Assembly (NCBI GenBank): GCA_949294665.1
Contig: CASFID010000067.1
Coordinates: forward strand, 61,935 to 125,934
DNA: 64,000 nt
Source of the DNA: an uncultured Eubacteriales bacterium
Lineage (GTDB): Bacteria; Bacillota; Clostridia; Lachnospirales; Lachnospiraceae
Direction: 5' to 3'
Below, in pieces: positions 8,886 to 57,735 of the stretch. Both the position numbers and the translations under genes were made by a program. Position 1 is the first letter of the stretch; every line of letters starts with the position of its first letter. The notes below the pieces were generated by a model. That model had not been told where the DNA came from. It made no database searches and was given only the letters and a program-made list of their open reading frames with translations.

Positions 8886-8962
8886 AAAAATTGGTCGATA
8901 TGTACAGAATGGTAAGAGGAAAACGTAGAAACACATCTGTTAATTTGGTGAAATTAACGAAA

Positions 8963-15403: not shown

Positions 15404-15646
15404 ATGGATATCTTGAAGATTGTGATAACAATCATCTTTGTTATAGACTGCATTGCGCTGGCTGCGATCATTCTTTTACAGGAAGGCAAGTCGGCGGGGC
15501 TCGGCACGATCAGCGGAGTAGCAGACACATATTGGGGACACAATAAAGGACGTTCTATGGAGGGTACACTCGTGAAGGTTACCCGTGTGCTGGCGGTACT
15601 CTTTATCGTGCTTGCCGTAGTACTTAATCTCGGAGCCCTGAATTAG
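15404..15646 (+). CDS. secG: Preprotein translocase subunit SecG
   Basis: An 80-residue protein with two transmembrane helices (about residues 3-25 and 58-76) joined by a loop containing LLQEGKSAGLGTISG, the SecG signature (usually LLQ-x-G-K-x-x-G). It is the small accessory subunit of the SecYEG protein-export channel. An AGGAGG site precedes the ATG. The order secG, rnr, smpB is conserved in many Firmicutes. A strong terminator follows it here, so rnr is probably transcribed partly on its own. Confidence 0.92.
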   Translation: MDILKIVITIIFVIDCIALAAIILLQEGKSAGLGTISGVADTYWGHNKGRSMEGTLVKVTRVLAVLFIVLAVVLNLGALN

Positions 15647-41309: not shown

Positions 41310-42119
41310 TTAATCCTCTTTGTGGAGTGCGTCAAGATCATAAACAGCGCCCATACCTTCGCGTACGTCATTCTGGATGCCGTACTGGGACGATGGGTAA
41401 CGCATCCCGTTTTTGGAAAGTTTCTCGATGCCGCGGATCATCTTGCATATGTATTCAGGCGGAAATGCCATGACCATCTCGTCTTCCAGGACGCCGCCGA
41501 AACGCCGCTCGCCAAAACAGGGAATCGTAAAGCATGGCTTGCGGGTAACTAATGTGCGTGTCCAGGAATCCGAACAAGAACTTTCTCCGATAAAGCTGCA
41601 TTCAAATTTCTCATATCCCTCGTACTGCAGGGCGCAGCACATGAAAACTACCTGCTCCGGAGTCGCGTAGACAAGGCATACATCCGGATTTTTCAGACGT
41701 CCGGAGACCATCGGAGATACGGCAACGCCTTCATATTTCTCTTTCGGGAGATAAGCGGCCTGCTGATGCGCGAGGGAATCCTTGTCTGTCTCAAACCACT
41801 TTCCGGTGAGGTGGGTAGCCTCTCTGAAATGGTGATTGCTGATCAGGCCGAGCACCCCGGAACACTGCAGAGTAGGAACGACGTCGTTGGTGATCCCGAC
41901 GGTATAGTTCAGTCTTGTAGTCTGACCCACCATCTGACAGGCCGTGTACATTGCGCCTGGCTTCGGAATGCGGATTTTCGGCACCGCCAGCATATCTTCT
42001 TTGTTCTTGAAAAACTTCATTGCAGTCGGCGTGGTCCGGATACGGAGTAATTCGATCAGACGTTTTGTGTACGCCGGTAATAATTCGTCTTTGTAATTTT
42101 CCAGATCTAAAGTTTCCAT
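41310..42119 (-). CDS. DUF169 family protein
   Basis: A 269-residue soluble protein of the DUF169 family, whose function is not established. Features are RTTPTAMKFFKN near the N-terminus and repeated cysteine patterns: TACQMVGQT, TLQCSGVLG, MCCALQYEGYEKFEC, GESSCSD and CFTIPCFGERRFGG. These could bind a metal or cluster. The ATG at 42119 is chosen because AAAGGAG lies 8 bases upstream. Its promoter carries the same operator palindrome as the CoA genes facing it, so it belongs to their regulon although it points away from them. Confidence 0.75.
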   Translation of the reverse strand: METLDLENYKDELLPAYTKRLIELLRIRTTPTAMKFFKNKEDMLAVPKIRIPKPGAMYTACQMVGQTTRLNYTVGITNDVVPTLQCSGVLGLISNHHFREATHLTGKWFETDKDSLAHQQAAYLPKEKYEGVAVSPMVSGRLKNPDVCLVYATPEQVVFMCCALQYEGYEKFECSFIGESSCSDSWTRTLVTRKPCFTIPCFGERRFGGVLEDEMVMAFPPEYICKMIRGIEKLSKNGMRYPSSQYGIQNDVREGMGAVYDLDALHKED

Positions 42120-42186
42120 TCTTCCAGCTCCTTTCAAAGTCATAATTTTTCAGGGCATTCTTTGGCAAAGAATATATAGCATTTTG

Positions 42187-42198
42187 TAAAACGTTTTC
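42187..42198. promoter_or_regulatory. Operator A (GAAAACGTTTTA on the minus strand)
   Basis: The core AAAACGTTTT is a perfect palindrome at 42188-42197. It lies 7 bases downstream of the -10 box of the DUF169 promoter, so a bound repressor would block transcription start. One of six similar sites in the cluster. Confidence 0.65.
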
Positions 42199-42205
42199 AT
42201 GTCTG

Positions 42206-42234
42206 ATTTTATCTAGGCATCAGGGAAATGTCAA
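42206..42234 (-). promoter_or_regulatory. Promoter of the DUF169 gene
   Basis: On the minus strand TTGACA (42234-42229), 17 bases, TAAAAT (42211-42206), followed at once by operator A. Confidence 0.7.
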
Positions 42235-42438
42235 TACGGTTTTTTAAATATATTGATTATATAAGAAAATGAAAATTTATCTTTGGATGAGTTGACGGAA
42301 TTGAAAAAAACGTATGTAATTTTTATGCTGTATCAGGGCGCAGAGACCGATAAAACGCACATTTTCGTACTTGATATTCATTCCGGGAAAATTCTGATAT
42401 AAACGAATGATATACAATATACACATAAAAATAATAAT

Positions 42439-42453
42439 AGAAAACGTTTTAAA
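42439..42453. promoter_or_regulatory. Operator B upstream of the first CoA-transferase gene
   Basis: AGAAAACGTTTTAAA, with the perfect core AAAACGTTTT at 42441-42450. It lies about 75 bp upstream of the -35 box, so it may act with operator A 250 bp away or with a site at the promoter. The 471-bp gap between the DUF169 and CoA-transferase starts is otherwise AT-rich, without a reading frame of note. Confidence 0.6.
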
Positions 42454-42523
42454 TCATACAATATGTATATTATTCTATTGCGTTTTGTAAATTTTACGCT
42501 TTCGTTTCATGGTAATTATGCTA

Positions 42524-42552
42524 TTGACAAATTGCTTTTTAGTCCTTATATT
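42524..42552 (+). promoter_or_regulatory. Promoter of the first CoA-transferase gene
   Basis: TTGACA (42524-42529), 17 bases, TATATT (42547-42552). A 13-bp palindrome ATTTGTTACAAAT (42550-42562) covers the expected start point. Confidence 0.65.
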
Positions 42553-42590
42553 TGTTACAAATTAATAAAAATGAATTGGAGGAACATATT

Positions 42591-43772
42591 ATGGCAACAG
42601 CACTTGAAGGAATCCGAATCGTTGATTTCACCCGTATGTATTCAGGACCATACTGTACGATGCTTCTGGGAGACATGGGTGCAGAGGTAATTAAGATCGA
42701 ACGCGCAGGGGGCGGAGATGAGGCGCGTCTGCTCTATCCTGTAAAAGATGGAGAAAGCGGATATTTTGCATATGTAAACAGGAGCAAAAAGAGCATCGCC
42801 CTCAACCTTAAGAGCGATGAAGGGAAAAAGATCGCTCTCGATATTATAAGAACTGCGGATATCCTGATCGAGAACTTCTCTCCTGGAACGATGAAAAGGC
42901 TTGGGCTGGATTATGAAACGGTAAAACAGGTGAAACCTGATATCGTATATGCATCCCTTTCCGGTTTCGGACAGACGGGACCGTATCATTTTAAACCTGC
43001 GTACGACGGGATCATCCTTTCTATGGCGGGCATGGTTTCGCTGAGCGGATTCCCGGACAAACCGGTGCGGCCGGGCCCGGCAGTCGCGGACAGCGCCACC
43101 GGGGTACACTGTGCGCTGGCGATCATGACGGCGCTGTGCCACAAGCTCAGGACCGGAGAAGGACAGTATATCGATATCGCGATGTTTGATACGATCTTCT
43201 CTATGCTGGAAGGATTCGTCCCGATGGCGACTATGCTCGGCACAGTCCCGGATCGCTTCGGGAACGGAAACGCAAGCTCAGCTCCGTATAATATGTATAA
43301 GACAAAAGACGGATATGTGAACATTGCAACGGCAAATGACAAACTGTTTGCCAGCATGGCAAAAGCAATGAAGAGGGAAGACCTGGTCGAGAATCCGAAG
43401 TTCTGTACAAATTATCTGAGGAAGCAGAATGTTGACGAGCTTGATGAAATCGTTTCCGCATGGACAGCGCAGTTTACATGTGATGAACTGATCTCTATCC
43501 TGGATGAGGCGAAAGTCCCTGCAGGCAAAATGAATACGATCTTTGATCTTCTGGAAGATCCGCAGATCGAGGCGAGGGACATGCTGATCGATCAGGAAGT
43601 TCCCGGCTCCGGAACATACAAATTCCCGGGAAATCCGATCAAATTCTCAAATACGCCCGTGGATACTTCGAGAAGAGCCCCGGAATTAGGAGAGAATGCG
43701 GCTGAGATACTTGCGGAATGCGGATATTCCCAGGAGCAGATAGATAAATTGTCTGCGGACGGCGTGATCTGA
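42591..43772 (+). CDS. CaiB/BaiF family CoA-transferase, first copy
   Basis: A 393-residue family III CoA-transferase, which moves CoA between carboxylic acids through a glutaryl-type aspartyl intermediate. The N-terminal motif GIRIVDFTRMYSGPYCTMLLGDMGAEVIKIE and the middle YASLSGFGQTGPY are typical, and the catalytic Asp is residue 167 in VADSATG (Asp169 in CaiB). GGAGG precedes the ATG at 42591. Known members act on carnitine, bile acids, oxalate, mesaconate or arylated acids, so the substrate cannot be read here. It shares about half its motifs with the second copy at 45161. A terminator follows. Confidence 0.9.
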   Translation: MATALEGIRIVDFTRMYSGPYCTMLLGDMGAEVIKIERAGGGDEARLLYPVKDGESGYFAYVNRSKKSIALNLKSDEGKKIALDIIRTADILIENFSPGTMKRLGLDYETVKQVKPDIVYASLSGFGQTGPYHFKPAYDGIILSMAGMVSLSGFPDKPVRPGPAVADSATGVHCALAIMTALCHKLRTGEGQYIDIAMFDTIFSMLEGFVPMATMLGTVPDRFGNGNASSAPYNMYKTKDGYVNIATANDKLFASMAKAMKREDLVENPKFCTNYLRKQNVDELDEIVSAWTAQFTCDELISILDEAKVPAGKMNTIFDLLEDPQIEARDMLIDQEVPGSGTYKFPGNPIKFSNTPVDTSRRAPELGENAAEILAECGYSQEQIDKLSADGVI

Positions 43773-43827
43773 CGGGATATCAGAAAACATAAGGGGAAAC
43801 TCCCGTATAAATTTAGTAAATTTGGAT

Positions 43828-43866
43828 TAAAAAGTTCCTGATCTGTACTTTCAGGAGCTTTTTATT
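43828..43866 (+). terminator. Terminator after the first CoA-transferase gene
   Basis: AAAAGTTCCTGA (43830-43841) pairs with TCAGGAGCTTTT (43851-43862), one G-U pair, then a T-rich tail. Confidence 0.8.
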
Positions 43867-43908
43867 GTTCAGAACTGTTATGATCCTCCCCGGGGGAAAG
43901 ATGCAAGA

Positions 43909-43937
43909 TTGATTTTTGCCGGCCGATAACATAAAAT
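43909..43937 (+). promoter_or_regulatory. Candidate promoter of the first cluster lacI gene
   Basis: TTGATT (43909-43914), 17 bases, TAAAAT (43932-43937). No GAAAACGTTTTC-type site overlaps it, so self-control is not evident. Confidence 0.4.
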
Positions 43938-44022
43938 TATATAAAGAGTATAAAGATCAGAGATAAAAGGTCTGAATTCGCATGGAAATCAGAATGATCG
44001 AAAGAGGAAAGGAGAGACCGGC

Positions 44023-45024
44023 ATGGGAATCACGATCAAAGAACTGTCCAAGATCAGCGGGTATTCCACCGCGACGATCTCAAGAGTTATTTCGGGGACC
44101 GGAAGTGTGAAAAAAGAAACAAAAGAAGCGATAGAAAAACTTCTGGTGGAGTACAATTACCGAACGAACGCGATGGAGATACGGAAAAAAACCACAAACA
44201 ATAAAACGATCATGATCCTTGTAGGAGATCTTGACAACTGGTACTATATGGAACTGGTCAGAGTGCTGAACAGACAGATCTGGGAGAAGGAATATATTCC
44301 GATCGTGGCTTATACCGATAACCAGATCGAGCTGGAAGAAGAATACGTCAGGCTTGCCCTGCTCAAGAACTATGCCGGAGTTGTTTTTATGAATGTGAGG
44401 GGAGGCGACAGGCTCAAAGAGATACTGAAGATGAATCAGTGCCCTGTTGTTTTTCTCAACCGGGGGATCAAGCTGGCTTCGTTTGATACAGTGTGCAATG
44501 ACAATTACCACGGCGGTTATCAGGCCACCACTTATCTCATTTCAAAAGGACATAAGAGGATAGGCCACCTGATGGGCAGCCTGTATTCCAAGACTGCCCT
44601 GGAAAGAAGGCACGGATATGAGGACGCGATGCGCGACAATGGCCTTATCGTCACGGAAAACAGTATCCTGCTGGGGGATCTGAACTATAAGAGCAGCTAC
44701 AAATGCGGAGAAGATGTCGTCAAAGCCGGACTTGATTTTACTGCGCTGTTCTGCAGCAGCTATCAGATGATGGAAGGGATACTCGACGCGTTTATGGATT
44801 ACGGCGTAAGGGTGCCGGAAGATATCAGCATGATCTGTTTTGACGAGACGCCGACAACGAAAAGAAAAAATATCACAACTGTATGTACGGATCCCGATAA
44901 GATGGGGACCACGGCGATAAAGCTCCTTACAGAGAGGATAAAAGACGGGGAGAAAGAGGCGTCTACAGTCTATCTTGAGACAAAGATGAGGATCAGAGGA
45001 AGTGTAAAGGATCTGAACCGGTAA
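44023..45024 (+). CDS. LacI family transcriptional regulator, first of the catabolic cluster
   Basis: A 333-residue regulator. The helix-turn-helix is TIKELSKISGYSTATISRVI, followed by an effector domain (ILVGDLDNWYYMELVRVLN at its start and DISMICFDETPTTKRKNITT near its end). The hinge KTTNNK is unusual and short of the common LARSL helix, so its bending of the operator may differ. AGGAGAG precedes the ATG. It stands alone between the two CoA-transferase genes and is one of two candidates for binding the GAAAACGTTTTC sites. Confidence 0.86.
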   Translation: MGITIKELSKISGYSTATISRVISGTGSVKKETKEAIEKLLVEYNYRTNAMEIRKKTTNNKTIMILVGDLDNWYYMELVRVLNRQIWEKEYIPIVAYTDNQIELEEEYVRLALLKNYAGVVFMNVRGGDRLKEILKMNQCPVVFLNRGIKLASFDTVCNDNYHGGYQATTYLISKGHKRIGHLMGSLYSKTALERRHGYEDAMRDNGLIVTENSILLGDLNYKSSYKCGEDVVKAGLDFTALFCSSYQMMEGILDAFMDYGVRVPEDISMICFDETPTTKRKNITTVCTDPDKMGTTAIKLLTERIKDGEKEASTVYLETKMRIRGSVKDLNR

Positions 45025-45071
45025 AAGGGATAGCCAGGGGAAAATATCGCCTGTGTTTTTGGATGTAATTA

Positions 45072-45100
45072 TTGATATGACTGCACATATATGTTAATAT
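45072..45100 (+). promoter_or_regulatory. Promoter of the second CoA-transferase gene
   Basis: TTGATA (45072-45077), 17 bases, TAATAT (45095-45100). Operator C starts 8 bases later. Confidence 0.5.
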
Positions 45101-45108
45101 ATGCAATA

Positions 45109-45120
45109 GAAATCGTTTTC
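45109..45120. promoter_or_regulatory. Operator C (GAAATCGTTTTC)
   Basis: Near-palindrome covering the expected transcription start of the second CoA-transferase gene. Same layout as operators A and E. Confidence 0.65.
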
Positions 45121-45160
45121 GCCCTCAAGATTATTATAATTTTTTGAACAGGAGGTTTTT

Positions 45161-46351
45161 ATGGAAGGGATTTTAAAGGGAGTCCGTATTTTGGACTTCG
45201 GACAGTTTATAGCGGCGCCGTTCTGCGGTATGCTGCTTGCAGATATGGGGGCTGAGGTCATTAAGATCGAACGGGTAGGTACGGGAGAAGACGGGAGGCG
45301 TCTCGGGCCGTATAAAGACGGCGTGAGCGTATATGTCACAGCCTTCAACCGGAATAAGAAAGGGATCACATTGAACTTACGGAGTGAGGAAGGCAAAGAG
45401 ATCCTCACAGAACTGATAAAAAAATCAGATGTGATCATTGAAAATTTCCGTCCGGGCACTATGGCAAAGCTCGGATTTGACTATGAAACGTGTAAAAAAA
45501 TCAATCCTCGCATTATCATGTCGTCGATTTCCGGGTTCGGCCAGGAGGGCCGGTATCGCAACAAGGCGGCCATGGACGGTATCGCATCTGCCATGAGCGG
45601 TCTGCATGCGATCAATTTTACGAAGACAGGACCAAGACCTACAGGTCTCCCGCTTGGCGACCATACCGCAGGCGTCTATAACGCGCTCGCCATCGTACTC
45701 GCCCTGTACGACAGAGAACGGACGGGCCAGGGGCAGCGGATCGATACGGCGATGCTGGACTGCCTGTTCTCGTTCTTCGAGACAAGGCTGCCGGGGTTTG
45801 CAGTCAACGGCACGGATATCGGCGTCGTGCCCAAATATGATACAGGAGATCCTCTGGCGTGTCCGTCGAATGTTTATCAGTGTAAAGATGGCTGGATCTG
45901 TATCCATGCCGGGGCGGATTCCAATTATAAACGCTTCTCGGAGGCGACAAAGGATCCCGCGCTGCTCCAGGAAAAATATCAGACGATCGAAAACCGCATG
46001 GCGGATTATGTTACGGTCGACCGCCTGACCGCGGAGTGGTTCGCGAAGCATACAGTGGAAGAAGCGGATGAGATCATGACCGGAGCAGGTGTGCCGTTTG
46101 GCGTAGTGCGGAATCTTGAAATGATCTTAAATGATCCTAATTCTATCGAGCGTGAAATGGTGATCTACGCAGAAGTTCCGGGAGCGGGCAAGTTTCCGTT
46201 TGTCGGAAATCCACTGAAACTGCAGACGCGTCCGATCAAAAACCGGGAGCGGGCGCCGCTTCTGGGGGAACACAATGATGAGATACTGAAAGGCCTGCTG
46301 GAGAAGTCCGAGGAAGAGATCGAAAGGCTGAAAGCGGACGGGATCGTATAA
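45161..46351 (+). CDS. CaiB/BaiF family CoA-transferase, second copy
   Basis: A 396-residue family III CoA-transferase. GVRILDFGQFIAAPFCGMLLADMGAEVIKIE marks the N-terminus, MSSISGFGQEGRY the middle, and the catalytic Asp is residue 167 in LGDHTAGV. The differences from the first copy near the active site (LPLGDHTAG against AVADSATG) suggest another substrate or the reverse exchange. ACAGGAGG precedes the ATG. It is a single-gene unit with its own promoter, operator and strong terminator. Confidence 0.9.
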   Translation: MEGILKGVRILDFGQFIAAPFCGMLLADMGAEVIKIERVGTGEDGRRLGPYKDGVSVYVTAFNRNKKGITLNLRSEEGKEILTELIKKSDVIIENFRPGTMAKLGFDYETCKKINPRIIMSSISGFGQEGRYRNKAAMDGIASAMSGLHAINFTKTGPRPTGLPLGDHTAGVYNALAIVLALYDRERTGQGQRIDTAMLDCLFSFFETRLPGFAVNGTDIGVVPKYDTGDPLACPSNVYQCKDGWICIHAGADSNYKRFSEATKDPALLQEKYQTIENRMADYVTVDRLTAEWFAKHTVEEADEIMTGAGVPFGVVRNLEMILNDPNSIEREMVIYAEVPGAGKFPFVGNPLKLQTRPIKNRERAPLLGEHNDEILKGLLEKSEEEIERLKADGIV

Positions 46352-46401
46352 ATTCCTGTTCACAGATCTGTGTGTCGCGACTGTTTACTGAAAAAACAGA
46401 T

Positions 46402-46448
46402 TTCCGTACTGTAAAGTATGTAAATTTACAGTACGGAATCTTTTTTTT
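46402..46448 (+). terminator. Strong terminator after the second CoA-transferase gene
   Basis: TTCCGTACTGTAAA (46402-46415) pairs perfectly with TTTACAGTACGGAA (46425-46438), and a run of eight or more T follows. Confidence 0.93.
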
Positions 46449-46518
46449 GTGGAAATTAACATGCCTGGTATCATCATGCGGCCGAAAGATATCAGGAAAA
46501 GCCCGGAAATACGTTATA

Positions 46519-46530
46519 GAAAACGATTAC
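46519..46530. promoter_or_regulatory. Operator D (GAAAACGATTAC)
   Basis: A weaker copy of the palindrome, 165 bp upstream of operator E in the gap before the MaoC gene. Its distance suggests an auxiliary site. The rest of this 379-bp gap is AT-rich and holds only the preceding terminator and the MaoC promoter. Confidence 0.45.
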
Positions 46531-46645
46531 GGATATATATTTAACAATTAGAAATGATATAAAAGTGGATAAAAAGATTCAAAATTACATTTTAAAATTG
46601 TGAATATTGTATAAAAAAATAGAAGATACTTCGGTGTATTGCCAA

Positions 46646-46674
46646 TTTACAAATATAAATGAAATATGTATCAT
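46646..46674 (+). promoter_or_regulatory. Promoter of the MaoC operon
   Basis: TTTACA (46646-46651), 17 bases, TATCAT (46669-46674). Operator E starts 9 bases later. Confidence 0.55.
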
Positions 46675-46682
46675 AATATCAA

Positions 46683-46696
46683 TGAAAGCGATTTCA
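46683..46696. promoter_or_regulatory. Operator E (TGAAAGCGATTTCA)
   Basis: Near-perfect palindrome over the expected start of the MaoC operon transcript. It also fits the CcpA cre consensus, so catabolite control is a competing reading. Confidence 0.65.
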
Positions 46697-46730
46697 ATTT
46701 CACTTAAAAGAAATTCAGGAGGGATCAAAT

Positions 46731-47171
46731 ATGTCAGCTTATGTTTACAGTGAATTGCAGGTGGGTGATTCCAACTCGTTTGAAAAAACGATCACTTCGG
46801 CGGATATCCTGATGTTTTCCGCGGTATCCGGCGACTGCAATCCGATGCACACCAATGAGAAATTCGCACAGAAAAGTTCATTCGGCGGAAGGATCGCACA
46901 CGGAGCTCTGGTATCAAGCCTGATATCTACCGCGCTTACAAATGCTTTCCCGACATCGATCTACATCTCCCAGAGCGTGAATTTCCTTGCGCCGGTCCAT
47001 ATAGGGGACACGATCAAAGCCGTCGTCACCTGTAAGGAGAAGCTGGGAAAGGGAAGAGTCCTGATGCAGACAGACTGCTTTAACCAGGATGGCGTGAAGG
47101 TGATCGAAGGAGAAGCGGTTACAAGACTTGCAAGGGAACCTATTCCGGAAGAACATAAATGGCTGTACTGA
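46731..47171 (+). CDS. MaoC-like hydratase (R-specific enoyl-CoA hydratase type)
   Basis: A 146-residue single hot-dog-fold protein. The catalytic pair is Asp35 and His40 in SGDCNPMHTNEKFA, with the PhaJ spacing. GGRIAHGALVSSLIS is the helix that follows. These enzymes add water to a trans-2-enoyl-CoA (or mesaconyl/itaconyl-type CoA) or remove it. CAGGAGG precedes the ATG. First gene of a unit with the transporter-like gene and crotonase; a lactonase-like hydrolase follows them. Confidence 0.88.
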   Translation: MSAYVYSELQVGDSNSFEKTITSADILMFSAVSGDCNPMHTNEKFAQKSSFGGRIAHGALVSSLISTALTNAFPTSIYISQSVNFLAPVHIGDTIKAVVTCKEKLGKGRVLMQTDCFNQDGVKVIEGEAVTRLAREPIPEEHKWLY

Positions 47172-47229
47172 TCAGAAAATGATCATGTAAAAGCAAGTAT
47201 AAAATGAAATTAACAGGAGGAAGGCGAAA

Positions 47230-47850
47230 GTGGAAAAGAACAGTGAAAACATTTACAAAGTGGAAGTGACAAAGCAGGCGACAACATGTTCTGATCCCGG
47301 CGGAGCGATCGGGTTTATCTTCGGAACATATGCGGTGATGTGCTGGCTGTCCATGGGAGGGATCTTAAGCCCGGACGCTACGCTTACGATCGGTATTTTT
47401 CAATTTTTATATGCCATCGGTTTCCTTGCCAGTTCCGTGCTGAACACGCAGAAGGGGAATCCGTTCGGAGCCGTCAATCTGGTGTTTACAGTTGCGTTTG
47501 GTTTCGTAGGAGGCGCGAATCAGATCTGTGCCGTCCTGCTTCCGGCGAAGGGACTTCCGTATGACGGAGCGGTGGGAGCTATCTTTTTCCTGATATCAGG
47601 TATTTATCTCTTGTTTATACTGCCGGGAATGCTTTCAATACCGAAATATCTCTTTATCGCTTATCTTGCGGGCGCGGTCGGACTTATCCTCGCGGGGATC
47701 GGCGGTACGGTCGGCCCGGCATGGACCAACGTAGCTTCCGGATGGGCTTTCCTGATCACGGCGATCGGCGGACTTTACAATTCCATCAGCTCTACAAACG
47801 CGGGGCTCGGACTCAACTGGCCGCCGGATGGAACCGGATTTAAAAAATAA
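47230..47850 (+). CDS. GPR1/FUN34/YaaH (acetate transporter) family-like membrane protein
   Basis: A 206-residue protein with six hydrophobic segments spread over the whole length. DPGGAIGFIFGTYAVMCWLS at the first helix and TQKGNPFGAVNLVFTVAFGF after the third match the layout of acetate/succinate uptake proteins of the YaaH (SatP) family, though the classical NPAPLGL motif is altered. It probably brings in a carboxylic acid. The start is GTG, with AGGAGG well placed. It lies between the hydratase and crotonase genes, so uptake of the cluster's substrate is a reasonable inference. An AmiS/UreI channel was considered and is less likely. Confidence 0.6.
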   Translation: MEKNSENIYKVEVTKQATTCSDPGGAIGFIFGTYAVMCWLSMGGILSPDATLTIGIFQFLYAIGFLASSVLNTQKGNPFGAVNLVFTVAFGFVGGANQICAVLLPAKGLPYDGAVGAIFFLISGIYLLFILPGMLSIPKYLFIAYLAGAVGLILAGIGGTVGPAWTNVASGWAFLITAIGGLYNSISSTNAGLGLNWPPDGTGFKK

Positions 47851-47878
47851 GACATATAGAAGAGGTGGAGACAACAAG

Positions 47879-48649
47879 TTGGACTATCAATTTTTTTCAA
47901 TCGAGATAAAAGATAAAGTGGCATGGATCACTTACAGTAAACCGCCGATCAACGCGATGAATGCGCAGGCCTACAGAGAAATGGCAGATGTTTTTGAGAA
48001 CACGGGAAAGCGGAAAGACATCAGGTGTATCGTTCTCAAGACAAAGGGCAAAGGGTTCATTGGGGGAAATGATATCAACGAGATTGCGGAGCATACAAAA
48101 CAGAATCATGCTGAATATCAGAAGACAGTAGGTTCGGCGATCATAGCTCTCCAGAACAGCGAAGTTCCGGTGATCGCCATGGTACACGGCTATGCGATCG
48201 GTTCCGGTATGCTCATCGCTCTGGCGTGTGATATGGTATATGCGGACGATACGGCATGGTTTACGCTTCCCGAAGTAAAGCTGGGGATCATCGCAGGTAT
48301 GAGTTTCGCCATGAGCGATATACCGAAGAAGGTTCTGTACCATATGTGTCTTACCGGCGAGAAAGTCACGGCGGAAGAGATGCTCAGATACGGGGCGGTC
48401 AATGTAGTGACCATACCGGAAAAGCTGGAGTCAAAGACAGCGCAGGCGGCTGCGGCGATCGCGGCACAGCCTCCGCACACGGTACGCGTTTTCAAGCAGT
48501 GCACAAGGCTCTGGTATGATAACCGGGCGGCGGACAAGTTCGATATGGAAACGATCTTTACCCACGAGATCCTCGAGACAGAGGAGAAAGAAGAGTGCAT
48601 CAAAGCATTCTTTGAGAAGAGACCGGCAGTGTTCAGCGACAACTGGTAG
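47879..48649 (+). CDS. Enoyl-CoA hydratase/isomerase (crotonase) family protein
   Basis: A 256-residue crotonase. The start is taken as TTG at 47879, 8 bases after GAGGTGGAG; the open frame runs further upstream into the transporter gene without a site. The oxyanion-hole segments are FIGGNDINE and HGYAIGSGMLIALACD. In true hydratases the second would hold a catalytic Glu (CELA); here it is Leu. The other Glu is kept in TLPEVKLGIIAG. A single acid fits an isomerase or decarboxylase better than a hydratase, and the MaoC protein may be the hydratase. Same unit as MaoC and the transporter. Confidence 0.85.
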   Translation: MDYQFFSIEIKDKVAWITYSKPPINAMNAQAYREMADVFENTGKRKDIRCIVLKTKGKGFIGGNDINEIAEHTKQNHAEYQKTVGSAIIALQNSEVPVIAMVHGYAIGSGMLIALACDMVYADDTAWFTLPEVKLGIIAGMSFAMSDIPKKVLYHMCLTGEKVTAEEMLRYGAVNVVTIPEKLESKTAQAAAAIAAQPPHTVRVFKQCTRLWYDNRAADKFDMETIFTHEILETEEKEECIKAFFEKRPAVFSDNW

Positions 48650-48737
48650 GAGACTGCCGCGGAAGATGATCTGAAAGCCTTATTTATAAGGAGTGAAGAT
48701 AAAAATTAAATTACATGAAAAACAAGGAGGTTGACAA

Positions 48738-49526
48738 ATGAAAGGACTGGAAATCAGAATTTTTGATCTGGGGTATCTGGCAACGATCGGAGAAGAAATC
48801 GTGTCGGGATTAGGAAACAATCCGTTTAATTCTCCTATCAGCGCGGTGCTGATCCGTCACCCGGAGAAAGGCTATATCCTCTATGATACAGGAAATGACG
48901 GCGCATGGCCGGATACATATCCCGAGCCGATCAAGAAAACGTTCCCTGTTGCAAAATTTATCAAGATCACAGATGCACTCAAAGAGGAAGGCGTTGACGC
49001 AAACGATCTGGATACGATCATCCTGTCGCATCTGCACCTCGATCACTCGGGCGGCCTGAAATATTTCCAGCGCACGGAGGCAGCGAAGAACGTGATCGTG
49101 GCAGAGGCGGAATTAAGAGACGCGCTCTATCAGACACACGTGGTATCAGACGGAAAAGTAGGAGCCTACTCAAGAGTACATTTCTCAGCCCTGGACGGCG
49201 TCGGATTTAAGCCGGTATCCGACGAGGTAGAGATCGCAGAGGGCGTGAGAGTATTCGAGCAGCACACGCATACAGCGGGCGTGCTCGGCCTTGAAGTAGA
49301 TCTTGAGGAAGCAGGAACGATCATCTTCACTGGAGATACGATCTATACACAGAGATCCTACGACAAGATCCTTCCGCCGGGCGGCAGTCTGAACGCAGGC
49401 ATGGCGCCTTTCCAAAAGAACATCGAGATGGTCAAAGAGCGCGAGAAAGAGAAAAACGCGACGGTCCTCTTCGGTCATGATCCGGATCAGGTGGCAGAGT
49501 GGTCGAAAAAAGGCTGGATCCGCTGA
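48738..49526 (+). CDS. Metallo-beta-lactamase fold hydrolase, N-acyl homoserine lactonase-like
   Basis: A 262-residue hydrolase. The di-zinc motif H-x-H-x-D-H lies at residues 98-103 in LSHLHLDHSGGL. HTHTAGVLGLEVD gives the next His, FTGDTIY the bridging Asp and VLFGHDPDQ the last His. This is the AiiA-like lactonase order. It may open a lactone ring or hydrolyse another ester. AAGGAGG precedes the ATG, 88 bp after the crotonase. It lacks a signal peptide, so it is cytoplasmic. In this setting it probably prepares or salvages a substrate of the CoA pathway rather than quenching signals. Confidence 0.85.
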   Translation: MKGLEIRIFDLGYLATIGEEIVSGLGNNPFNSPISAVLIRHPEKGYILYDTGNDGAWPDTYPEPIKKTFPVAKFIKITDALKEEGVDANDLDTIILSHLHLDHSGGLKYFQRTEAAKNVIVAEAELRDALYQTHVVSDGKVGAYSRVHFSALDGVGFKPVSDEVEIAEGVRVFEQHTHTAGVLGLEVDLEEAGTIIFTGDTIYTQRSYDKILPPGGSLNAGMAPFQKNIEMVKEREKEKNATVLFGHDPDQVAEWSKKGWIR

Positions 49527-49598
49527 TAAATACTATCTTTTTTCTTCCGCAGAATGTATAATGATATCATGAATTGAGCGGAAGGAACGGATATTACA

Positions 49599-50618
49599 GT
49601 GAGTAAAAAATATACGATCAAAGACATAGCGAATATGGCAGGCGTTTCACCGGCGACCGTCTCGAGAGTTTGTTCAGACACTCCGGGGGTAAATACGGTG
49701 AAGCGCCAGGAGATCAAAGATCTGATCAAGAAGACAGGATACCGGCCGAGCAGCGTGGCGCGGAGTCTTGTCAGCGGCAGGACAAATGTAGTAGGGCTGA
49801 TCGTGAGAGATCTGGAAAATCAGTATTATTCATCTATGGCGGTGGCATTTCAGAAAGAACTGACAAAGATCGGCTACATCCCCATGGTGATGAGTGTGGA
49901 TGCGATGGACGATCAGCAGAATAAGAATTACCTCTCGGAGGTCATCAGTCTGTTTGATTTTGCAGGGCTCTTTATTACCGTTCTGGCAAAAGAAAGTGTT
50001 CTCGAAGAAGCGCTCAGAGAGTGCACATGTCCGGTGATCCTGCTGAACAGGACATTTGATATTTCCTGTGATCAGGTCGTACAGAATGATTACCGTGCCG
50101 GCGCTATGGCGGCCGAGCATCTGCTTGGACTGGGACACAGAAAATTCCTGCTCGTGGGCGGGCCGTTCCAGACGAGCGCGTCGCTCAGATTCCGCATGGA
50201 AGGTTTTCAGCAGGCTCTGGCGGCGGCCGGTATCGGGATCTCCCGTGAGAATATCCTGAGATGTGAACTGGATATGACGTCCGCCCATGAAGCGGTAAAC
50301 AGATATCTGGAAGAGCAGGAAGAAAATCTTCCGACAGCGGCTTTCGCCGCAGCGAATAACATGGCTCTCGGACTTTTGCAGAGCTGCAGCGAAAAAGGCA
50401 TCAGGATCCCTGAGGATCTGTCAGTCGTGACAGCCGATAACCCACCGATCATGAGCCTGCCGGGGATCGACCTGACAACGGTCAGCATCTCCGTCGACGA
50501 CATGGTGAGAGAGGCTGTGAAGATGCTAAAAGCACGGATAGACGGCAGAAAGACAGAGCAGGATCTGGTCGTACTGCAGCCTGAGCTGATCGTTCGCGGT
50601 TCGTCAAAAAAGAGATAG
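49599..50618 (+). CDS. LacI family transcriptional regulator, second of the catabolic cluster
   Basis: A 339-residue regulator with helix-turn-helix TIKDIANMAGVSPATVSRVC and the classical hinge ARSLVSGRTNVVGLIVRDLE. The C-terminal effector domain contains DLSVVTADNPPIMSLPGIDLTT. The start is GTG with GGAAGGA upstream. An inverted repeat CTTCCGC/GCGGAAG (49544-49550 and 49578-49584) frames its TATAAT (49557-49562). It lies between the MBL and SDR units. Its normal hinge makes it the better candidate for the GAAAACGTTTTC operators. Confidence 0.88.
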   Translation: MSKKYTIKDIANMAGVSPATVSRVCSDTPGVNTVKRQEIKDLIKKTGYRPSSVARSLVSGRTNVVGLIVRDLENQYYSSMAVAFQKELTKIGYIPMVMSVDAMDDQQNKNYLSEVISLFDFAGLFITVLAKESVLEEALRECTCPVILLNRTFDISCDQVVQNDYRAGAMAAEHLLGLGHRKFLLVGGPFQTSASLRFRMEGFQQALAAAGIGISRENILRCELDMTSAHEAVNRYLEEQEENLPTAAFAAANNMALGLLQSCSEKGIRIPEDLSVVTADNPPIMSLPGIDLTTVSISVDDMVREAVKMLKARIDGRKTEQDLVVLQPELIVRGSSKKR

Positions 50619-50657
50619 CATGCGGAAAGGACGTTGAGTCGAATATAAAAGATACAA

Positions 50658-50680
50658 AATAAGTGACATTGTCACTTATT
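50658..50680. promoter_or_regulatory. 23-bp perfect palindrome upstream of the SDR operon
   Basis: AATAAGTGACA and TGTCACTTATT flank a single T: an 11-bp perfect inverted repeat with no T-run after it. Its GTGACA/TGTCAC core differs from the LacI sites and looks like a dimer site for a TetR- or GntR-type regulator. It occupies the -35 region of a possible promoter with TAAAAT at 50680-50685. Confidence 0.6.
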
Positions 50681-50695
50681 AAAATGAATTTAGGT

Positions 50696-50707
50696 GAAAA
50701 CGTTTTC
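50696..50707. promoter_or_regulatory. Operator F (GAAAACGTTTTC, perfect palindrome)
   Basis: The best copy of the cluster's palindrome, 24 bp before the SDR start codon and about 10 bases after a possible -10 box. Confidence 0.7.
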
Positions 50708-50730: not shown

Positions 50731-51474
50731 ATGAGATTAGAAGGAAAAGTAGCAATCGTAACAGGTGCAGGACGCGGACTTGGAAAAGGAATCGCAAAGA
50801 AGCTGGCAGAGGAAGGCGCAAGCGTGGTTCTTGCGGATATGAATCCGGCGGATGAAGCTGTCAAAGAGATCACGGACAACGGCGGAACAGCAGTTTCTTA
50901 TACAGTAAATATTTCCGAGCAGGAAGAAGTAAAAGCTCTGGTCAACTTTGCGATCGAGAAGTACGGCACACTGGACATTATGGTAAATAATGCGGGCATC
51001 AACCGCGACGGTATGCTCCACAAGATGTCAAAAGAGAACTGGGATCTTGTCATCGCAGTGGACCTGACAGGTACGTTCTACGGCACACAGGAAGCGATCA
51101 AATATATGCGTGAGAAGGGATACGGACGCATCATTAACATTTCTTCCGGAAGCTGGCTTGGAAATATCGGCCAGGCAAACTACGCTGCAGCGAAAGCAGG
51201 CGTTGTAGGTCTTACAAAGACGGCGGCCAGAGAGAACGCAAAGAAAGGCATCACATGCAACGCGATCTGCCCGGGATTCATCGAGACAGATATGACGAGC
51301 AAGCTTAAAGAAGTAAACGACGGAGCGGCATGGGAGAGCATGATCTCAAGAGTGCCTATGGGATATGCAGGCAAACCTTCAGACGTAGGAAACATGGTAG
51401 CGTTCCTTGCGTCTGACGAGGCGTCCTACATCACTTCAGAAGTCATCAACGTAGGCGGCGGAATGATCGTATAA
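50731..51474 (+). CDS. Short-chain dehydrogenase/reductase (3-oxoacyl reductase type)
   Basis: A 247-residue SDR of the FabG/PhaB type. The nucleotide site is VTGAGRGLGKGIA, NNAGINRDG follows, and the catalytic Ser, Tyr and Lys are in NISSGSW and YAAAKAG. Asp in VVLADMN after the second strand suggests NAD rather than NADP. It would oxidise a hydroxyacyl-CoA or reduce an oxoacyl-CoA. AGGAGG precedes the ATG. First gene of the largest unit in the cluster (SDR, thiolase, HADH, CoA-transferase, ligase, thioesterase). Confidence 0.9.
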   Translation: MRLEGKVAIVTGAGRGLGKGIAKKLAEEGASVVLADMNPADEAVKEITDNGGTAVSYTVNISEQEEVKALVNFAIEKYGTLDIMVNNAGINRDGMLHKMSKENWDLVIAVDLTGTFYGTQEAIKYMREKGYGRIINISSGSWLGNIGQANYAAAKAGVVGLTKTAARENAKKGITCNAICPGFIETDMTSKLKEVNDGAAWESMISRVPMGYAGKPSDVGNMVAFLASDEASYITSEVINVGGGMIV

Positions 51475-51565: not shown

Positions 51566-52753
51566 ATGGATAAGTTAAAAGATGTTGTAATCGTATCAGG
51601 TGTGCGTCTTCCGGTAGGCTCCTACGGCGGAAGTCTGAAGACGGTAAGCGCCATCGATATGGGAGCTATGGTGGTAAAAGAGGCAGTGAAACGCGCGGGG
51701 ATCGAACCGTCACAGGTAGATGAAGTGATCGTAGGCCAGGTAGGTCAGATCGCGGAGTGCGGATTTGTGGCAAGAGCGATCAGCCTGTCGGCAGGCATGC
51801 CCAAGGAGACGACAGCTTATTCTGTAAACCGCCAGTGCGGTTCCGGTCTCCAGGCGATCGCAGACGCAGTTATGGAGATCCAGACAGGCTTCGCAGATGT
51901 AGTTGTGGCAGCGGGATCTGAGAACTTAAGCCAGCTTCCCTACTATGTGAAAGATGCAAGATGGGGCGCAAGGATGGGACACAAGGTATTCGAGGACGGA
52001 GTCATCGATATCCTTACATGGCCGCTGAACAATTCTCATAACGGAACTACGGCTGAGGAAGTGGCAAAACGCTTTAACGTAAGCAGGGAAGAGCAGGACG
52101 CTTATGCTCTGCAGAGCCATCAGCGCGCGGTAGCAGCGATCAAGGCCGGCAAGTTCGTCGATGAGATCCTTCCGGTAGAACTCAAAGACAGAAAAGGAAA
52201 CGTGACAGTATTCGATACAGACGAAGGCCCGAGAGAAGGCCAGACAATGGAGAAACTTGCGAAACTCCGCCCGGCATTTGTCAAAGACGGAACAGTTACG
52301 GCAGGAAATTCCTCCAGTCTGAACGACGGCGCTGCTGCAGTTGTAGTGATGTCCAGAGAAAAGGCAGAAGAACTCGGCGTTGTGCCGAAGCTCAAAGTTG
52401 AAGGCTATACGGTCGCAGGGATCGAAGCAGAGATCATGGGATATGCACCGAAGCTCTCAAGCGAGAAACTGGCGGCTCAGCTCGGTGTCAACTTAAAAGA
52501 CATCGATATGTTCGAGATCAACGAGGCATTTGCAAGCCAGGCATACGCGGTCAGAAGAGACCTGGGACTGGATCCCGAGAAAGTCAATATCTATGGCGGC
52601 GGCATCTCCATCGGACATCCGATCGGAGCAACAGGATGTATCCTGACAGTCAAGGTTCTCTATGAACTGATGCGTACAGACAAGAAAGACGCGATGATCA
52701 GCATGTGCATCGGCGGGGGACAGGGAATCTCCATGTATTTTACAAAGTGCTGA
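51566..52753 (+). CDS. Thiolase (acetyl-CoA acetyltransferase family)
   Basis: A 395-residue thiolase. The nucleophile Cys is residue 91 in NRQCGSGLQAI, the His motif is ISIGHPIGATG and the second Cys is in MCIGGGQGISM. All catalytic residues are present. It cleaves a 3-oxoacyl-CoA with CoA to give acetyl-CoA (or the reverse). AGAAAGGATG precedes the ATG. A partial terminator separates it from the next gene. Confidence 0.93.
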   Translation: MDKLKDVVIVSGVRLPVGSYGGSLKTVSAIDMGAMVVKEAVKRAGIEPSQVDEVIVGQVGQIAECGFVARAISLSAGMPKETTAYSVNRQCGSGLQAIADAVMEIQTGFADVVVAAGSENLSQLPYYVKDARWGARMGHKVFEDGVIDILTWPLNNSHNGTTAEEVAKRFNVSREEQDAYALQSHQRAVAAIKAGKFVDEILPVELKDRKGNVTVFDTDEGPREGQTMEKLAKLRPAFVKDGTVTAGNSSSLNDGAAAVVVMSREKAEELGVVPKLKVEGYTVAGIEAEIMGYAPKLSSEKLAAQLGVNLKDIDMFEINEAFASQAYAVRRDLGLDPEKVNIYGGGISIGHPIGATGCILTVKVLYELMRTDKKDAMISMCIGGGQGISMYFTKC

Positions 52754-52837: not shown

Positions 52838-53995
52838 ATGAAACTCGAAGATTTAAAGACGATCGCGGTTATCGGACCGGGCGATATCGGGCACGGTATC
52901 GCACAGCTAGCTCTGATGTCCGGCTACAGGGTAAATCTGTGTGGCAGAAGACAGGTGAGCCTGGACGGAGGTATGGACAGGATCCGGAAAAGCCTTGAGA
53001 AGCTGACGGAAAAAGGAAAGATACAGGGAACAGTGCTGGAGGCATTTCACAATGGCGGCATGAAAGCGACTCTTTCTCTGGAAGAGGCGGTGAAGGACGC
53101 GCAGTTGATCATAGAGGCTGTGCCCGAGGATATGGAGATCAAAAGACCGGTGCTGCGGCAGATATCAGACGCCTGCAGCAGAGACGCCGTCATAGCTACG
53201 AACACGTCTTCAATGAGTATCACGACACTGGCCGGGAACGTAGCTCATCCCGAGAACATGGCGGGGATGCATTACTTTAACCCGGCAGTGCTTATGAAAC
53301 TGGTAGAAGTGATCCGAGGCGGCAAAACTTCAGACGAGACGGTCAGGTTTATCTGTGACTATGCGAAACATGCGGGAAAGACGGTCGTTCTTGCCAGGAA
53401 AGACACCCCGGGATTTATCGCAAACCGTATCGTCGCTCCTGTCGTGGTATACAACGGTCTCTGTGTGGATATTGATGGTTTTACACCGGCGGATATCGAT
53501 CTCTCCATGATGAAGAACGGACAGAAGATGGGGCCGATGGAGCTGGCGGACTATACGGGGATCGATGTGACGTCATCCTGTCAGGAATATTATCATACCC
53601 ATCTCTCTCCTGATTACGGACCGTCTGAGACGGCGCGGAAGCTGATGGCAAAAGGATGTCTGGGGAAAAAGACGGGATCGGGATATTATAAATGGCCGGA
53701 AAAGGGAAGGCCCGATATCGATCCGGCGCTGTATACGGGGAGGTACGACCCGGATATCCCGAATTTTATCCAGGCAAATGAGGCGTGCAGACTGTACGAA
53801 GAGGGCGTCTGTACACTGGAGGAGTGCGACACGGCGATACGGCTCGGATATAATATGGAGGGACCGATCGAGTATATCCAGAGATTTGAACCAAAAGAAG
53901 TGACCGGCGCTCTGGAATATCTGTCCGTCCGGTATCACAAAGAGATATTCAAGCCTGTGGAGACGATCAGAACAGGGGCTTATAAGCGGAAATAG
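52838..53995 (+). CDS. 3-hydroxyacyl-CoA dehydrogenase family protein
   Basis: A 385-residue dehydrogenase. The Rossmann motif is AVIGPGDIGHGIAQLALMSGYRVNLC, with DAQLIIEAVPEDMEIK and ATNTSSMSITTLA carrying the usual Glu and Ser, and GMHYFNPAVLMKLVEVI the catalytic His. A C-terminal domain starts near DTPGFIANRIV, and a second one fills the last 100 residues, making the protein longer than the 280-residue short form. It oxidises an S-3-hydroxyacyl-CoA to the 3-oxo form for the thiolase. Having both this enzyme and the SDR suggests two hydroxyacyl steps or stereoisomers. Confidence 0.9.
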   Translation: MKLEDLKTIAVIGPGDIGHGIAQLALMSGYRVNLCGRRQVSLDGGMDRIRKSLEKLTEKGKIQGTVLEAFHNGGMKATLSLEEAVKDAQLIIEAVPEDMEIKRPVLRQISDACSRDAVIATNTSSMSITTLAGNVAHPENMAGMHYFNPAVLMKLVEVIRGGKTSDETVRFICDYAKHAGKTVVLARKDTPGFIANRIVAPVVVYNGLCVDIDGFTPADIDLSMMKNGQKMGPMELADYTGIDVTSSCQEYYHTHLSPDYGPSETARKLMAKGCLGKKTGSGYYKWPEKGRPDIDPALYTGRYDPDIPNFIQANEACRLYEEGVCTLEECDTAIRLGYNMEGPIEYIQRFEPKEVTGALEYLSVRYHKEIFKPVETIRTGAYKRK

Positions 53996-54023: not shown

Positions 54024-55628
54024 ATGAAAAGGCCGAAAGTGATTAACGCCAGAGAGGCGGTAAAAATGATCCAGGACGGAACAACACTTGCCATTATTGC
54101 GATGACCCAGGTGTCGGCAAGTACCACGATCCTGAAAGAAATAGAGAGGAGTTTTCTGGAGGAGGGACACCCAAGAGATCTTACATATGTTCATACGTGC
54201 GGGCAGGCATCTGTAGGAAAACCGGGAGGAATGCAGTATATCGCCTATGAGGGATTGCTCAAACGTGTGATCGGAGGCCACTGGGGACAGTCGGCAAAGA
54301 TGATGGACCTGATCACAGAGAACAAGATCGAGGCATTCAATCTCCCACAGGGACAGATGGCCAACATGTTTCACAGCATGGCTCTGCGTGAGCCGGGCAA
54401 ACTCAGCAAAGTAGGGCTGGGCACATATATCGATCCGCGCATCGAAGGCGGCAAGATGAACCAGCGCGCGGTCGACAGCGGCTATGACACAGTGGCTGTC
54501 GTCACAGTGGACGGAGAAGAGTATATCCAGTATAAACCGATCCCCATCGACACGCTGCTGATCCGGGGGACATACGCCGATGCAAACGGCAACATTTCGA
54601 CAGAGAGGGAAGCTATGGTATTGGAGATGCTCCCGGCAGTCATGGCGACAAAGAGATGGGGCGGCAAGGTGATCTGTCAGGTGGAGTCGGTCGTTGAGAA
54701 CGGTTCGATCGCACCGAAAGATGTAGTTGTGCCGGGTGTGTTTGTGGATGCTGTCGTCGTAGCGGAGAATCCTTATGAAGAGCACAGACAGACCTATTCC
54801 TGGTACTATGATCCGTCCTACAGCGGGGAAGTGCGGGTTCCCGAGGACTCGATCGAAGTTCTTCCGACAGACATGCGTAAGATCATCTCGCGCAGGGCTG
54901 TCTCAGAGCTGAAACCGGACCAGATCATCAACATCGGTACGGGAATCCCCAACGAGAACATCGGTCCGATCATTGCGGAAGAGGGAATATCGGATATCGT
55001 CACGATCACGGTAGAGTCCGGAGTCTACGGCGGCGTGCCCGCAAGTACGATCGACTTTGGAATATCAAGAAACGCGCAGGCGCTCATCTCTCATGACCGG
55101 CAGTTCGAGTTCTATAACGGCACCGGCATCGACTATACGTTTATGGGAGCGGGAGAACTGGACCAGAACGGGAACGTCAACGCTACGAAGATGGGAAGCA
55201 AGGCTCCGGGAGCGGGCGGATTCATCGATATCACCGCGACAGCCAAGAACGTGATCTTCTGTTCCTCATTTACAGGCGGCGGACTGAAAACCTCTTTCTC
55301 TGAGGACGGCGTCAGGATAGAGCAGGAAGGAAAATTTAAAAAGCTTGTAAAAGAAGTACAGCAGATATCTTACAACGGGAAAGAAGCTCTGGCGCAGGGA
55401 CAGAACATGCTTTACGTCACAGAGAGAGCAGTATTCAAACTGACAGAAAAGGGCGTCATGCTCGTAGAGGTGGCAAAAGGCGTGGACCTGCAGAAAGATA
55501 TTCTGGACCAGATGGAATTTAAACCGCTCATAGCAGAAGAACTGAAATATACAAGCACAGACTTTTATAAAGAAGGCGCTTGCGGGCTCAGAGAACTGAT
55601 CGAGAGAAATGTCGCGGAGGACAGATAG
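54024..55628 (+). CDS. Fused acyl-CoA:acetate (3-oxoacid) CoA-transferase
   Basis: A 534-residue family I CoA-transferase with alpha and beta halves in one chain, as in propionate CoA-transferase. The alpha half covers about residues 1-260. The beta half has INIGTGIPNENIGPIIAEEG and the catalytic Glu at about residue 331 in VTITVESGVYGG, followed by GAGELDQNGNVNATKMG. It exchanges CoA between an acyl-CoA and a free acid such as acetate. AAAGGAGAG precedes the ATG. It would activate the substrate with acetyl-CoA made by the thiolase. It is unrelated in fold to the CaiB/BaiF enzymes upstream. Confidence 0.9.
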   Translation: MKRPKVINAREAVKMIQDGTTLAIIAMTQVSASTTILKEIERSFLEEGHPRDLTYVHTCGQASVGKPGGMQYIAYEGLLKRVIGGHWGQSAKMMDLITENKIEAFNLPQGQMANMFHSMALREPGKLSKVGLGTYIDPRIEGGKMNQRAVDSGYDTVAVVTVDGEEYIQYKPIPIDTLLIRGTYADANGNISTEREAMVLEMLPAVMATKRWGGKVICQVESVVENGSIAPKDVVVPGVFVDAVVVAENPYEEHRQTYSWYYDPSYSGEVRVPEDSIEVLPTDMRKIISRRAVSELKPDQIINIGTGIPNENIGPIIAEEGISDIVTITVESGVYGGVPASTIDFGISRNAQALISHDRQFEFYNGTGIDYTFMGAGELDQNGNVNATKMGSKAPGAGGFIDITATAKNVIFCSSFTGGGLKTSFSEDGVRIEQEGKFKKLVKEVQQISYNGKEALAQGQNMLYVTERAVFKLTEKGVMLVEVAKGVDLQKDILDQMEFKPLIAEELKYTSTDFYKEGACGLRELIERNVAEDR

Positions 55629-57255: not shown

Positions 57256-57735
57256 ATGGAGACAAAGAAATATAAACATGTAGAAGATTCGCTGACAGAA
57301 CAGGTCTATGTAATCCGCTATTATCAGATCAATGGTTACGGCAGACTGTTCGGCGGACAGCTTATGCAGTGGATCGACGAGACTGCCGGAGTCGTGAGCT
57401 GGCGGCACTCCGGTATGACCGTGACGACGGCGTCTATCGACAATCTGAATTTCAAAGCTCCGGCATATGCAAATGACACTGTTGTACTTGTCGCAAAACT
57501 CACCTATGTGGGAAAGACCTCTATGGAAGTAAGGGTAGACACCTACATAGAGGACACTCAGGGGATGCGCAGGAACATCAACCGGGCATATGTAGTGATG
57601 GTCGCTATCGATGAGAACGGACGGGCGCAGGAAGTACCCGGACTGATCGTGGAGACAGAGTCGGAAAAAGCAGAGTGGGAGAGTGGCCGGAAGCGATATG
57701 AGCTCAGAAAGAAGAGACGGATAGAAGGATTTTAG
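57256..57735 (+). CDS. Acyl-CoA thioesterase, hot-dog fold (YciA/ACOT type)
   Basis: A 159-residue thioesterase. YGRLFGGQLMQWIDETAGVVSWRHSG is the ACOT motif with the catalytic Asp, and NLNFKAPAYANDTVVLVAKL the second strand pair. It releases CoA from surplus acyl-CoA, possibly as a safety valve in the pathway. It is 19 bp behind the ligase and is the last gene of the unit. The C-terminus is basic (KRYELRKKRR). Confidence 0.85.
   Translation: METKKYKHVEDSLTEQVYVIRYYQINGYGRLFGGQLMQWIDETAGVVSWRHSGMTVTTASIDNLNFKAPAYANDTVVLVAKLTYVGKTSMEVRVDTYIEDTQGMRRNINRAYVVMVAIDENGRAQEVPGLIVETESEKAEWESGRKRYELRKKRRIEGF

Follow-up and report, generated by a model that had tools for sequence, protein, structure and literature searches.

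What controls a row of genes for coenzyme A (CoA) chemistry in an uncultured bacterium of the Lachnospiraceae, a local regulator or one that serves the whole genome? The question is raised by a 64,000-nucleotide stretch of contig CASFID010000067.1 (the window), which belongs to an assembly of 3.59 Mb in 75 contigs. It carries six CG-centred palindromes with the core GAAAnCGnTTTC, all intergenic, which start at positions 42187, 42440, 45109, 46519, 46684 and 50696 and are called here operators 1 to 6 (Table 1). They lie in a gene cluster that probably serves the CoA-dependent breakdown of some compound and that also encodes two LacI-family proteins, LacI-A and LacI-B; PF00356 (LacI-type helix-turn-helix) and PF13377 (periplasmic-binding-like ligand domain) were found in both. 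An earlier note on this DNA had reported the two LacI genes, and the palindromes upstream of the DUF169, CoA-transferase, MaoC and short-chain dehydrogenase (SDR) units; all are in place, one site being shifted by a single base (42440, given as 42439). We consider it likely that all six palindromes serve as operators for a locally encoded LacI-family repressor, which would most likely be LacI-B.

Six palindromes with one core

A search of the window for GAAANCGNTTTC with at most one mismatch gives eight matches, seven of them within 42187-50707 (the six sites and 43446). In 100 shuffles of the window the mean was 2.6 and the maximum 7, with none at 8. The intergenic DNA of the cluster amounts to 1,542 bases; a first-order Markov model predicts a mean of 0.064 sites there, and 0 of 20,000 runs reach the six observed. 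The latter test is partly circular, the motif having been taken from the same six sites, and it is the loci of other genomes that provide independent tests. Among 28 half-sites, G is found at position -6 in 25 and C at position -1 in all. The near match at 43446-43457, GAAATCGTTTCC, lies inside the first CoA-transferase gene and is probably due to chance.

Position relative to predicted promoters

Operators 1, 3 and 5 begin 7, 8 and 9 bases after the -10 boxes of predicted promoters that score 11, 9 and 10 of 12, respectively. The last two are TTGATA-17-TAATAT, before the second CoA-transferase, and TTTACA-17-TATCAT, before the MaoC unit. As a background, the intergenic parts of the cluster offer 2,748 position-strand pairs, and 161 of these, the sites included, stand 5-10 bases from a promoter that scores 9 of 12 or more. 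Operator 2 stands 72 bases ahead of the -35 box of the strong promoter of the first CoA-transferase. Operator 6 is preceded, 10 bases upstream, by a TAAAAT that is kept in the sister lineage described below. The steric geometry at transcription starts proposed in the earlier note therefore applies to 42187, 45109 and 46684 and not to 42440 and 46519, and 50696 has the TAAAAT but no -35 box.

Looping of DNA between operators 1 and 2 (253 bases) or 4 and 5 (165 bases) was rejected: it is not expected, because no tetramer tail can be seen by eye in the C-terminal part of LacI-B.

Intergenic sites with the strict core are confined to the cluster

The genome of the window contains 15 matches to GAAAACGTTTTC when one mismatch is allowed; a reversed control contains 24. 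Four of the 15 fall in these 8.5 kb, all intergenic (Poisson P ~6e-8), and the remaining 11 of 11 lie inside open reading frames, the context being judged here and below by a rule that counts open frames of at least 60 codons. Because the strict matches outside the cluster are all in open frames, the site set is private, as the earlier note had proposed. The statement is limited to the strict core. Two looser patterns come close to background, with 21 and 163 places in the genome and 20 and 116, respectively, in the reversed controls.

A sister lineage, represented by genomes G041 and G048 with nearly identical loci (L043 and L044 are apparently the same records), keeps part of the site set. 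There, GCAAACGTTTTC and GAAAACGTTTTA are found upstream of a GntP/CitMHS-type permease gene that precedes LacI-A, and GAAAACGTTTTC before the SDR gene; an extra place, GAAGACGATTTC, adjoins the second site. At the SDR site a block of 15 bases is identical to that of the window, though the whole gap aligns at only 77 of 125 columns. Strict matches in G041 number 29, three of them in its cluster. Of the other 26, 24 are inside open frames and two outside, one of which, GAAAACCTTTTC, stands ~30 bases before a 346-codon gene. The bare 12-mer GAAAACGTTTTC is not diagnostic alone; it is present in 32 of 146 related genomes, and its contexts were seen for the clusters of the window, G041 and G048 only.

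In the sister stretches examined there is no match to DUF169, to a second family III CoA-transferase or to the membrane protein of the window cluster. A frameshift divides the permease gene in one sister assembly (L043 8532-9884), and in the other (L033 13560-14912) the gene is intact.

The motif recurs beside relatives of LacI-B

Relatives of LacI-B with 32-36% identity are encoded in three further genomes, G150 (another genus), G057 and G003, the value being 35-36% for G150 and G057. Each has genes for a ligase, a CoA-transferase, an SDR and a thiolase nearby; the SDR is 80-85% and the thiolase 85-88% identical to that of the window. The G150 regulator closes a row on the minus strand that also comprises a lactonase-like hydrolase, a binding protein, an ATPase and two permeases; this row and the ligase row diverge. 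Pfam supports the binding protein and the hydrolase, and the remaining genes are read from open frames. G057 has open frames similar in size and order.

The divergent gap of G150 holds GATATCGTTTTC, GAAACCGTTTTC and GAAATCGTTTTC, and that of G057 GCAACCGGTTTC and GAAACCGGTTGC. The Markov null reaches the G150 count (three) in none and the G057 count (two) in one of 20,000 runs, the G057 gap being measured from a GTG start picked after a ribosome-binding-like sequence, whereas the longest frame would enclose its first site. Three of these five sites follow a -10 box at 9, 11 and 12 bases, and the other two at 16 and 60.

In a tree, six LacI-B-type proteins are joined at 97/95 and eight LacI-A-type proteins at 100/100. 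The clades are rare: at the thresholds used, and with 5 to 14 candidates scored per genome, LacI-B-type matches were found in 5 of 146 and 2 of 397 genomes.

Possible catabolite control by CcpA

The earlier note had named CcpA as the main rival. Classical cre control seems unlikely. Only operator 5 matches the B. subtilis cre, WTGNNARCGNWWWCAW, without mismatch, the other five sites having two or three. The classical pattern TGWNANCGNTNWCA occurs at 27 places of the genome against 4 in the reversed control, one of them being operator 5. Among the other 26, 23 are inside open frames, one is just inside an extended LacI frame and only two lie between frames, the first preceding a phosphotransferase system gene and the second adjoining a LacI gene. 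None of 23 LacI-like matches in the genome passes the ccpA cut-off, which is reached in only 2 of 14 control genomes; LacI-B scores 155.5 bits for a cut-off of 442.35. A classical cre regulon, in short, seems absent.

A clostridial-type CcpA, with a motif such as RRGAAAANGTTTTCWW of C. difficile, is the form in which the rival survives and stays the foremost one: the sites would be its catabolite-control elements, and the cluster would be shut by global carbon control. We judge this unlikely. Within two mismatches, RRGAAAANGTTTTCWW is found at four of the six sites and nowhere else in the window, the genome encodes an HPr kinase that scores over its cut-off, and operator 5, as noted, fits the B. 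subtilis element without mismatch. The targets listed in a table of the C. difficile study (PMC3510511) include hadA and scoB, names of CoA-transferase functions. A global regulon is nevertheless hard to reconcile with the place of the strict core, which outside the clusters lies in open frames at 11 of 11 places here and at 24 of 26 in G041, or with the two inter-frame cre places among 26. Moreover, the central CG is invariant here and not fixed in the C. difficile motif, the sites of G057 differ from RRGAAAANGTTTTCWW at five positions, and the ccpA cut-off, seldom reached in the control genomes as well, is passed by none of the LacI-like matches. Loose matches in 249 kb of other DNA of the same genome, a biased sample partly chosen for such matches, are in open frames in 21 of 25 cases.

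Which LacI-family protein

Francke et al. 2008 (PMC2329647) associate the arginine of the recognition helix with G at -6, and the loss of the hinge leucine with the loss of the central CG. LacI-B, which has the arginine and the hinge leucine (ARSL), agrees with this rule, as do the sites with their frequent G at -6 and central CG. In LacI-A and its seven relatives (44023-45024, L017, L018, L019, L020, L024, L025 and L134), the ungapped alignment places Lys (five), Gln (two) or Arg (one) at the hinge position, and the HMMER alignment to PurR gives the same; members of this clade often have Leu, Ile or Met two residues earlier, which could substitute in a gapped alignment. The LacI-A clade may recognise operators without a central CG. 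Five distinct loci have a LacI-A relative and no LacI-B match (L045 and L138 are apparently one locus and were counted once). Four of them lack a CG-centred site within one mismatch, and L038 has two, both in open frames.

LacI-B is favoured over LacI-A because of the hinge leucine rule and the homologous loci, and it is the better candidate, rather than both. LacI control, which the earlier note had left to one or both proteins, is thereby supported and narrowed to LacI-B. It is improbable that LacI-A, alone or with LacI-B, binds the six sites: although it has relatives beside CoA genes in G083 and G056, all eight proteins of its clade depart from leucine at the hinge, to which the published rule ties the central CG, and at its own loci CG-centred sites are absent or lie in open frames. 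Joint binding by the two proteins was judged less likely for the same missing leucine. Use of the sites by another LacI-family protein of the genome, or chance palindromes in AT-rich promoter gaps, is very improbable, for although other paralogs have both the arginine and the hinge leucine (e.g. C44:50656) and the bare 12-mer is not diagnostic, TGTAAACGTTTACA-type places lie next to the gene of that paralog, and chance is opposed by the Markov runs in the window and by the recurrence beside LacI-B relatives.

We now propose a mechanism for LacI-B. Its dimer would read GAAAnCG half-sites, and its hinge leucines would lie at the CG step in the centre. As long as inducer is absent, LacI-B would cover the transcription starts of three units (DUF169, second CoA-transferase and MaoC) and block RNA polymerase, and it would also occupy the sites ahead of the first CoA-transferase and SDR units. 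The inducer, which may be the substrate after import or a lactone or hydroxy-acid derived from it, would release LacI-B and open the catabolic cluster.

A number of observations weigh against this assignment. The recognition-helix arginine is present in LacI-A as well and does not separate the two proteins, so that the choice depends on the hinge and on the absence of sites elsewhere; LacI-A is also retained in the cluster in the sister genomes. The gap directly before either LacI gene has no site, operators 2 and 4 lie away from any good predicted start, and no -35 box was found for operator 6. By the open-frame rule, two of the three cluster sites of L043 are intergenic and the SDR site, at 15488, is overlapped by a 68-codon antisense frame; the first site of L033, at 13071, is inside the end of an open frame, and 14481 of L136 likewise counts as lying in one. 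In G003, no CG-centred site precedes the ligase gene, and the LacI-B-type regulator lacks the hinge leucine. Finally, the G150 sites fit RRGAAAANGTTTTCWW within one to three mismatches. Because some sites of the sister lineage and of G057 are in open frames by one rule, and because those of G150 fit the C. difficile motif, our confidence in this explanation is lowered.

Two palindromes with an AT centre were noticed beside relatives of these regulators: TGAAATATATTTCA (L038 10877), a possible operator lying between the gene of a LacI-A relative and a thiolase gene that diverges from it, and GTAAATTTAC, before the ligase gene of G003. Both are short and were picked post hoc, and serve as leads only. 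A speculative reading, which we hold to be rather doubtful, is that two LacI clades were recruited to CoA-dependent catabolism in Lachnospiraceae, LacI-B reading GAAAnCGnTTTC and LacI-A, its hinge leucine lost, AT-centred operators such as TGAAATATATTTCA. If so, the window cluster would have two LacI regulators with separate operator codes, sensing different intermediates of one non-sugar pathway.

Relation to known regulons

LacI-family regulators are nearly all assigned to carbohydrates. Ravcheev et al. 2014 (PMC4052901) place 176 of the 182 LacI groups that have an assigned pathway under carbohydrate metabolism, and the word CoA is absent from their main text. The local regulons described there resemble the present one in their even palindrome with a central CG (1173 regulators), in sites near the start codon, in a regulator beside its targets and in several sites per intergenic region (~20% of operons). 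They differ in their carbohydrate targets, whereas here we find CoA-transferases, hydratases, dehydrogenases, a thiolase and an acyl-CoA ligase. This would be a LacI regulon of a common type acting on an uncommon pathway, in which binding and repression are what we infer.

With B. subtilis CcpA and cre the system shares the GAAAnCG core, the contact of Arg with G(-6) and the hinge Leu at the central CG; unlike them, it has T at -7 in 5 of the 12 half-sites of the window, is limited to one cluster and has a regulator far below the ccpA cut-off. The core is near-identical to that of C. difficile CcpA, some of whose targets bear CoA-transferase gene names in PMC3510511; the regulon there is global and its central CG not fixed, and here the strict core gives no genome-wide intergenic set. 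Full-text literature, with few subscription papers among it and with the papers that came up judged by title and the opening of the abstract, yielded no LacI regulon of CoA-transferase, acyl-CoA or clostridial beta-oxidation genes, the nearest being the same C. difficile paper.

Three of the sites recall the lac system. Operator O1 of lac sits on the transcription start and acts as a steric block, and operators 1, 3 and 5 would be placed likewise; LacI-B differs in having no visible tetramer tail.

An operator code of LacI-B-type regulators kept next to a conserved gene set (ligase, CoA-transferase, SDR and thiolase) both in Mediterraneibacter and in a second genus would be either a clear exception to the carbohydrate rule or a sign of a sugar-like substrate. 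The genes of the window cluster encode CoA enzymes, and G150 adds a sugar-type binding protein and the sister lineage a GntP/CitMHS permease. Transporters vary by lineage (GntP type in the sister, sugar-type ABC in G150, a family-less membrane protein in the window), so that the substrate may be sugar-like. The inducer of LacI-B would reveal what these gut clusters degrade, and the pair of LacI-A and LacI-B offers a natural test of the rule that connects the hinge leucine to the central CG.

Gene content of the cluster and neighbouring features

The DUF169 gene comes first, on the minus strand, and all later genes through the thioesterase-like protein are on the plus strand (Table 1). The genome is Mediterraneibacter-like: the closest named orthologs of LacI-A are from an uncultured Mediterraneibacter and Candidatus M. 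norfolkensis (75% each), followed by Anaerobium acetethylicum (58%).

Table 1 Predicted operators, promoters and genes of the CoA cluster, in window coordinates
Feature	Position	Strand	Remarks
DUF169 protein	41310..42143	-	PF02596
Operator 1 (predicted)	42187..42198	-	TAAAACGTTTTC; minus strand GAAAACGTTTTA; at predicted DUF169 start
DUF169 promoter (predicted)	42206..42234	-	TTGACA-17-TAAAAT, 11 of 12; operator 1 7 bases after -10
Operator 2 (predicted)	42440..42451	+	GAAAACGTTTTA; upstream of first CoA-transferase
First CoA-transferase promoter (predicted)	42524..42552	+	TTGACA-17-TATATT, 11 of 12
CoA-transferase family III, copy 1	42591..43772	+	PF02515
LacI-A, second LacI-family protein	44023..45024	+	Hinge position without leucine, ungapped alignment
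Operator 3 (predicted)	45109..45120	+	GAAATCGTTTTC; at predicted start of second CoA-transferase
CoA-transferase family III, copy 2	45161..46351	+	PF02515
Operator 4 (predicted)	46519..46530	+	GAAAACGATTAC; weakest match; 165 bases upstream of operator 5
Operator 5 (predicted)	46684..46695	+	GAAAGCGATTTC; predicted MaoC unit start; full B. subtilis cre consensus match
MaoC-like hydratase	46731..47171	+	PF01575
Membrane protein, family-less	47230..47850	+	Six predicted helices; no Pfam match; poor model
Enoyl-CoA hydratase/isomerase	47828..48649	+	PF00378
Metallo-beta-lactamase-fold hydrolase, lactonase-like	48738..49526	+	
LacI-B, candidate repressor of the six sites	49599..50618	+	
Operator 6 (predicted)	50696..50707	+	GAAAACGTTTTC; perfect palindrome before SDR unit; identical in sister lineage
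Short-chain dehydrogenase (SDR, FabG-like)	50731..51474	+	
Thiolase	51566..52753	+	
3-hydroxyacyl-CoA dehydrogenase	52838..53995	+	
Family I CoA-transferase, FadX-like	54024..55628	+	
Acyl-CoA ligase	55641..57236	+	
Acyl-CoA thioesterase-like protein	57256..57735	+	Weak match, below cut-off

The small membrane protein is without a Pfam hit up to E 1, and the model built from its sequence alone is poor (mean pLDDT 53); it is possibly the transporter of the window cluster. In G150, genes of a sugar-type ABC transporter lie between the LacI-B relative and the lactonase-like gene (L135 9574-14307), an arrangement suggestive of a sugar-like compound or a lactone as substrate of the homologous cluster. 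As a candidate pathway, that of myo-inositol in Anaerostipes (PMC8355322) was considered and dropped, its gene set being unlike that of the window, and LacI and thiolase being absent from the main text of that paper.

Between LacI-B and operator 6, a stem-loop at 50658-50680, not followed by a run of T, has a counterpart in the sister lineage (L043 15448-15473), where the stem is kept with letters changed on both sides (z -2.9 and -1.7).

The sugar locus mentioned in the earlier note, of rhamnose type, does carry two exact AGCGAACCGTT repeats, at 8962 and 9103. Elsewhere in the genome, TGTAAACGTTTACA and TGATAACGTTTACA (L072, L073; C44:50498, C44:51617) adjoin another LacI gene and would form a second local operator pair.

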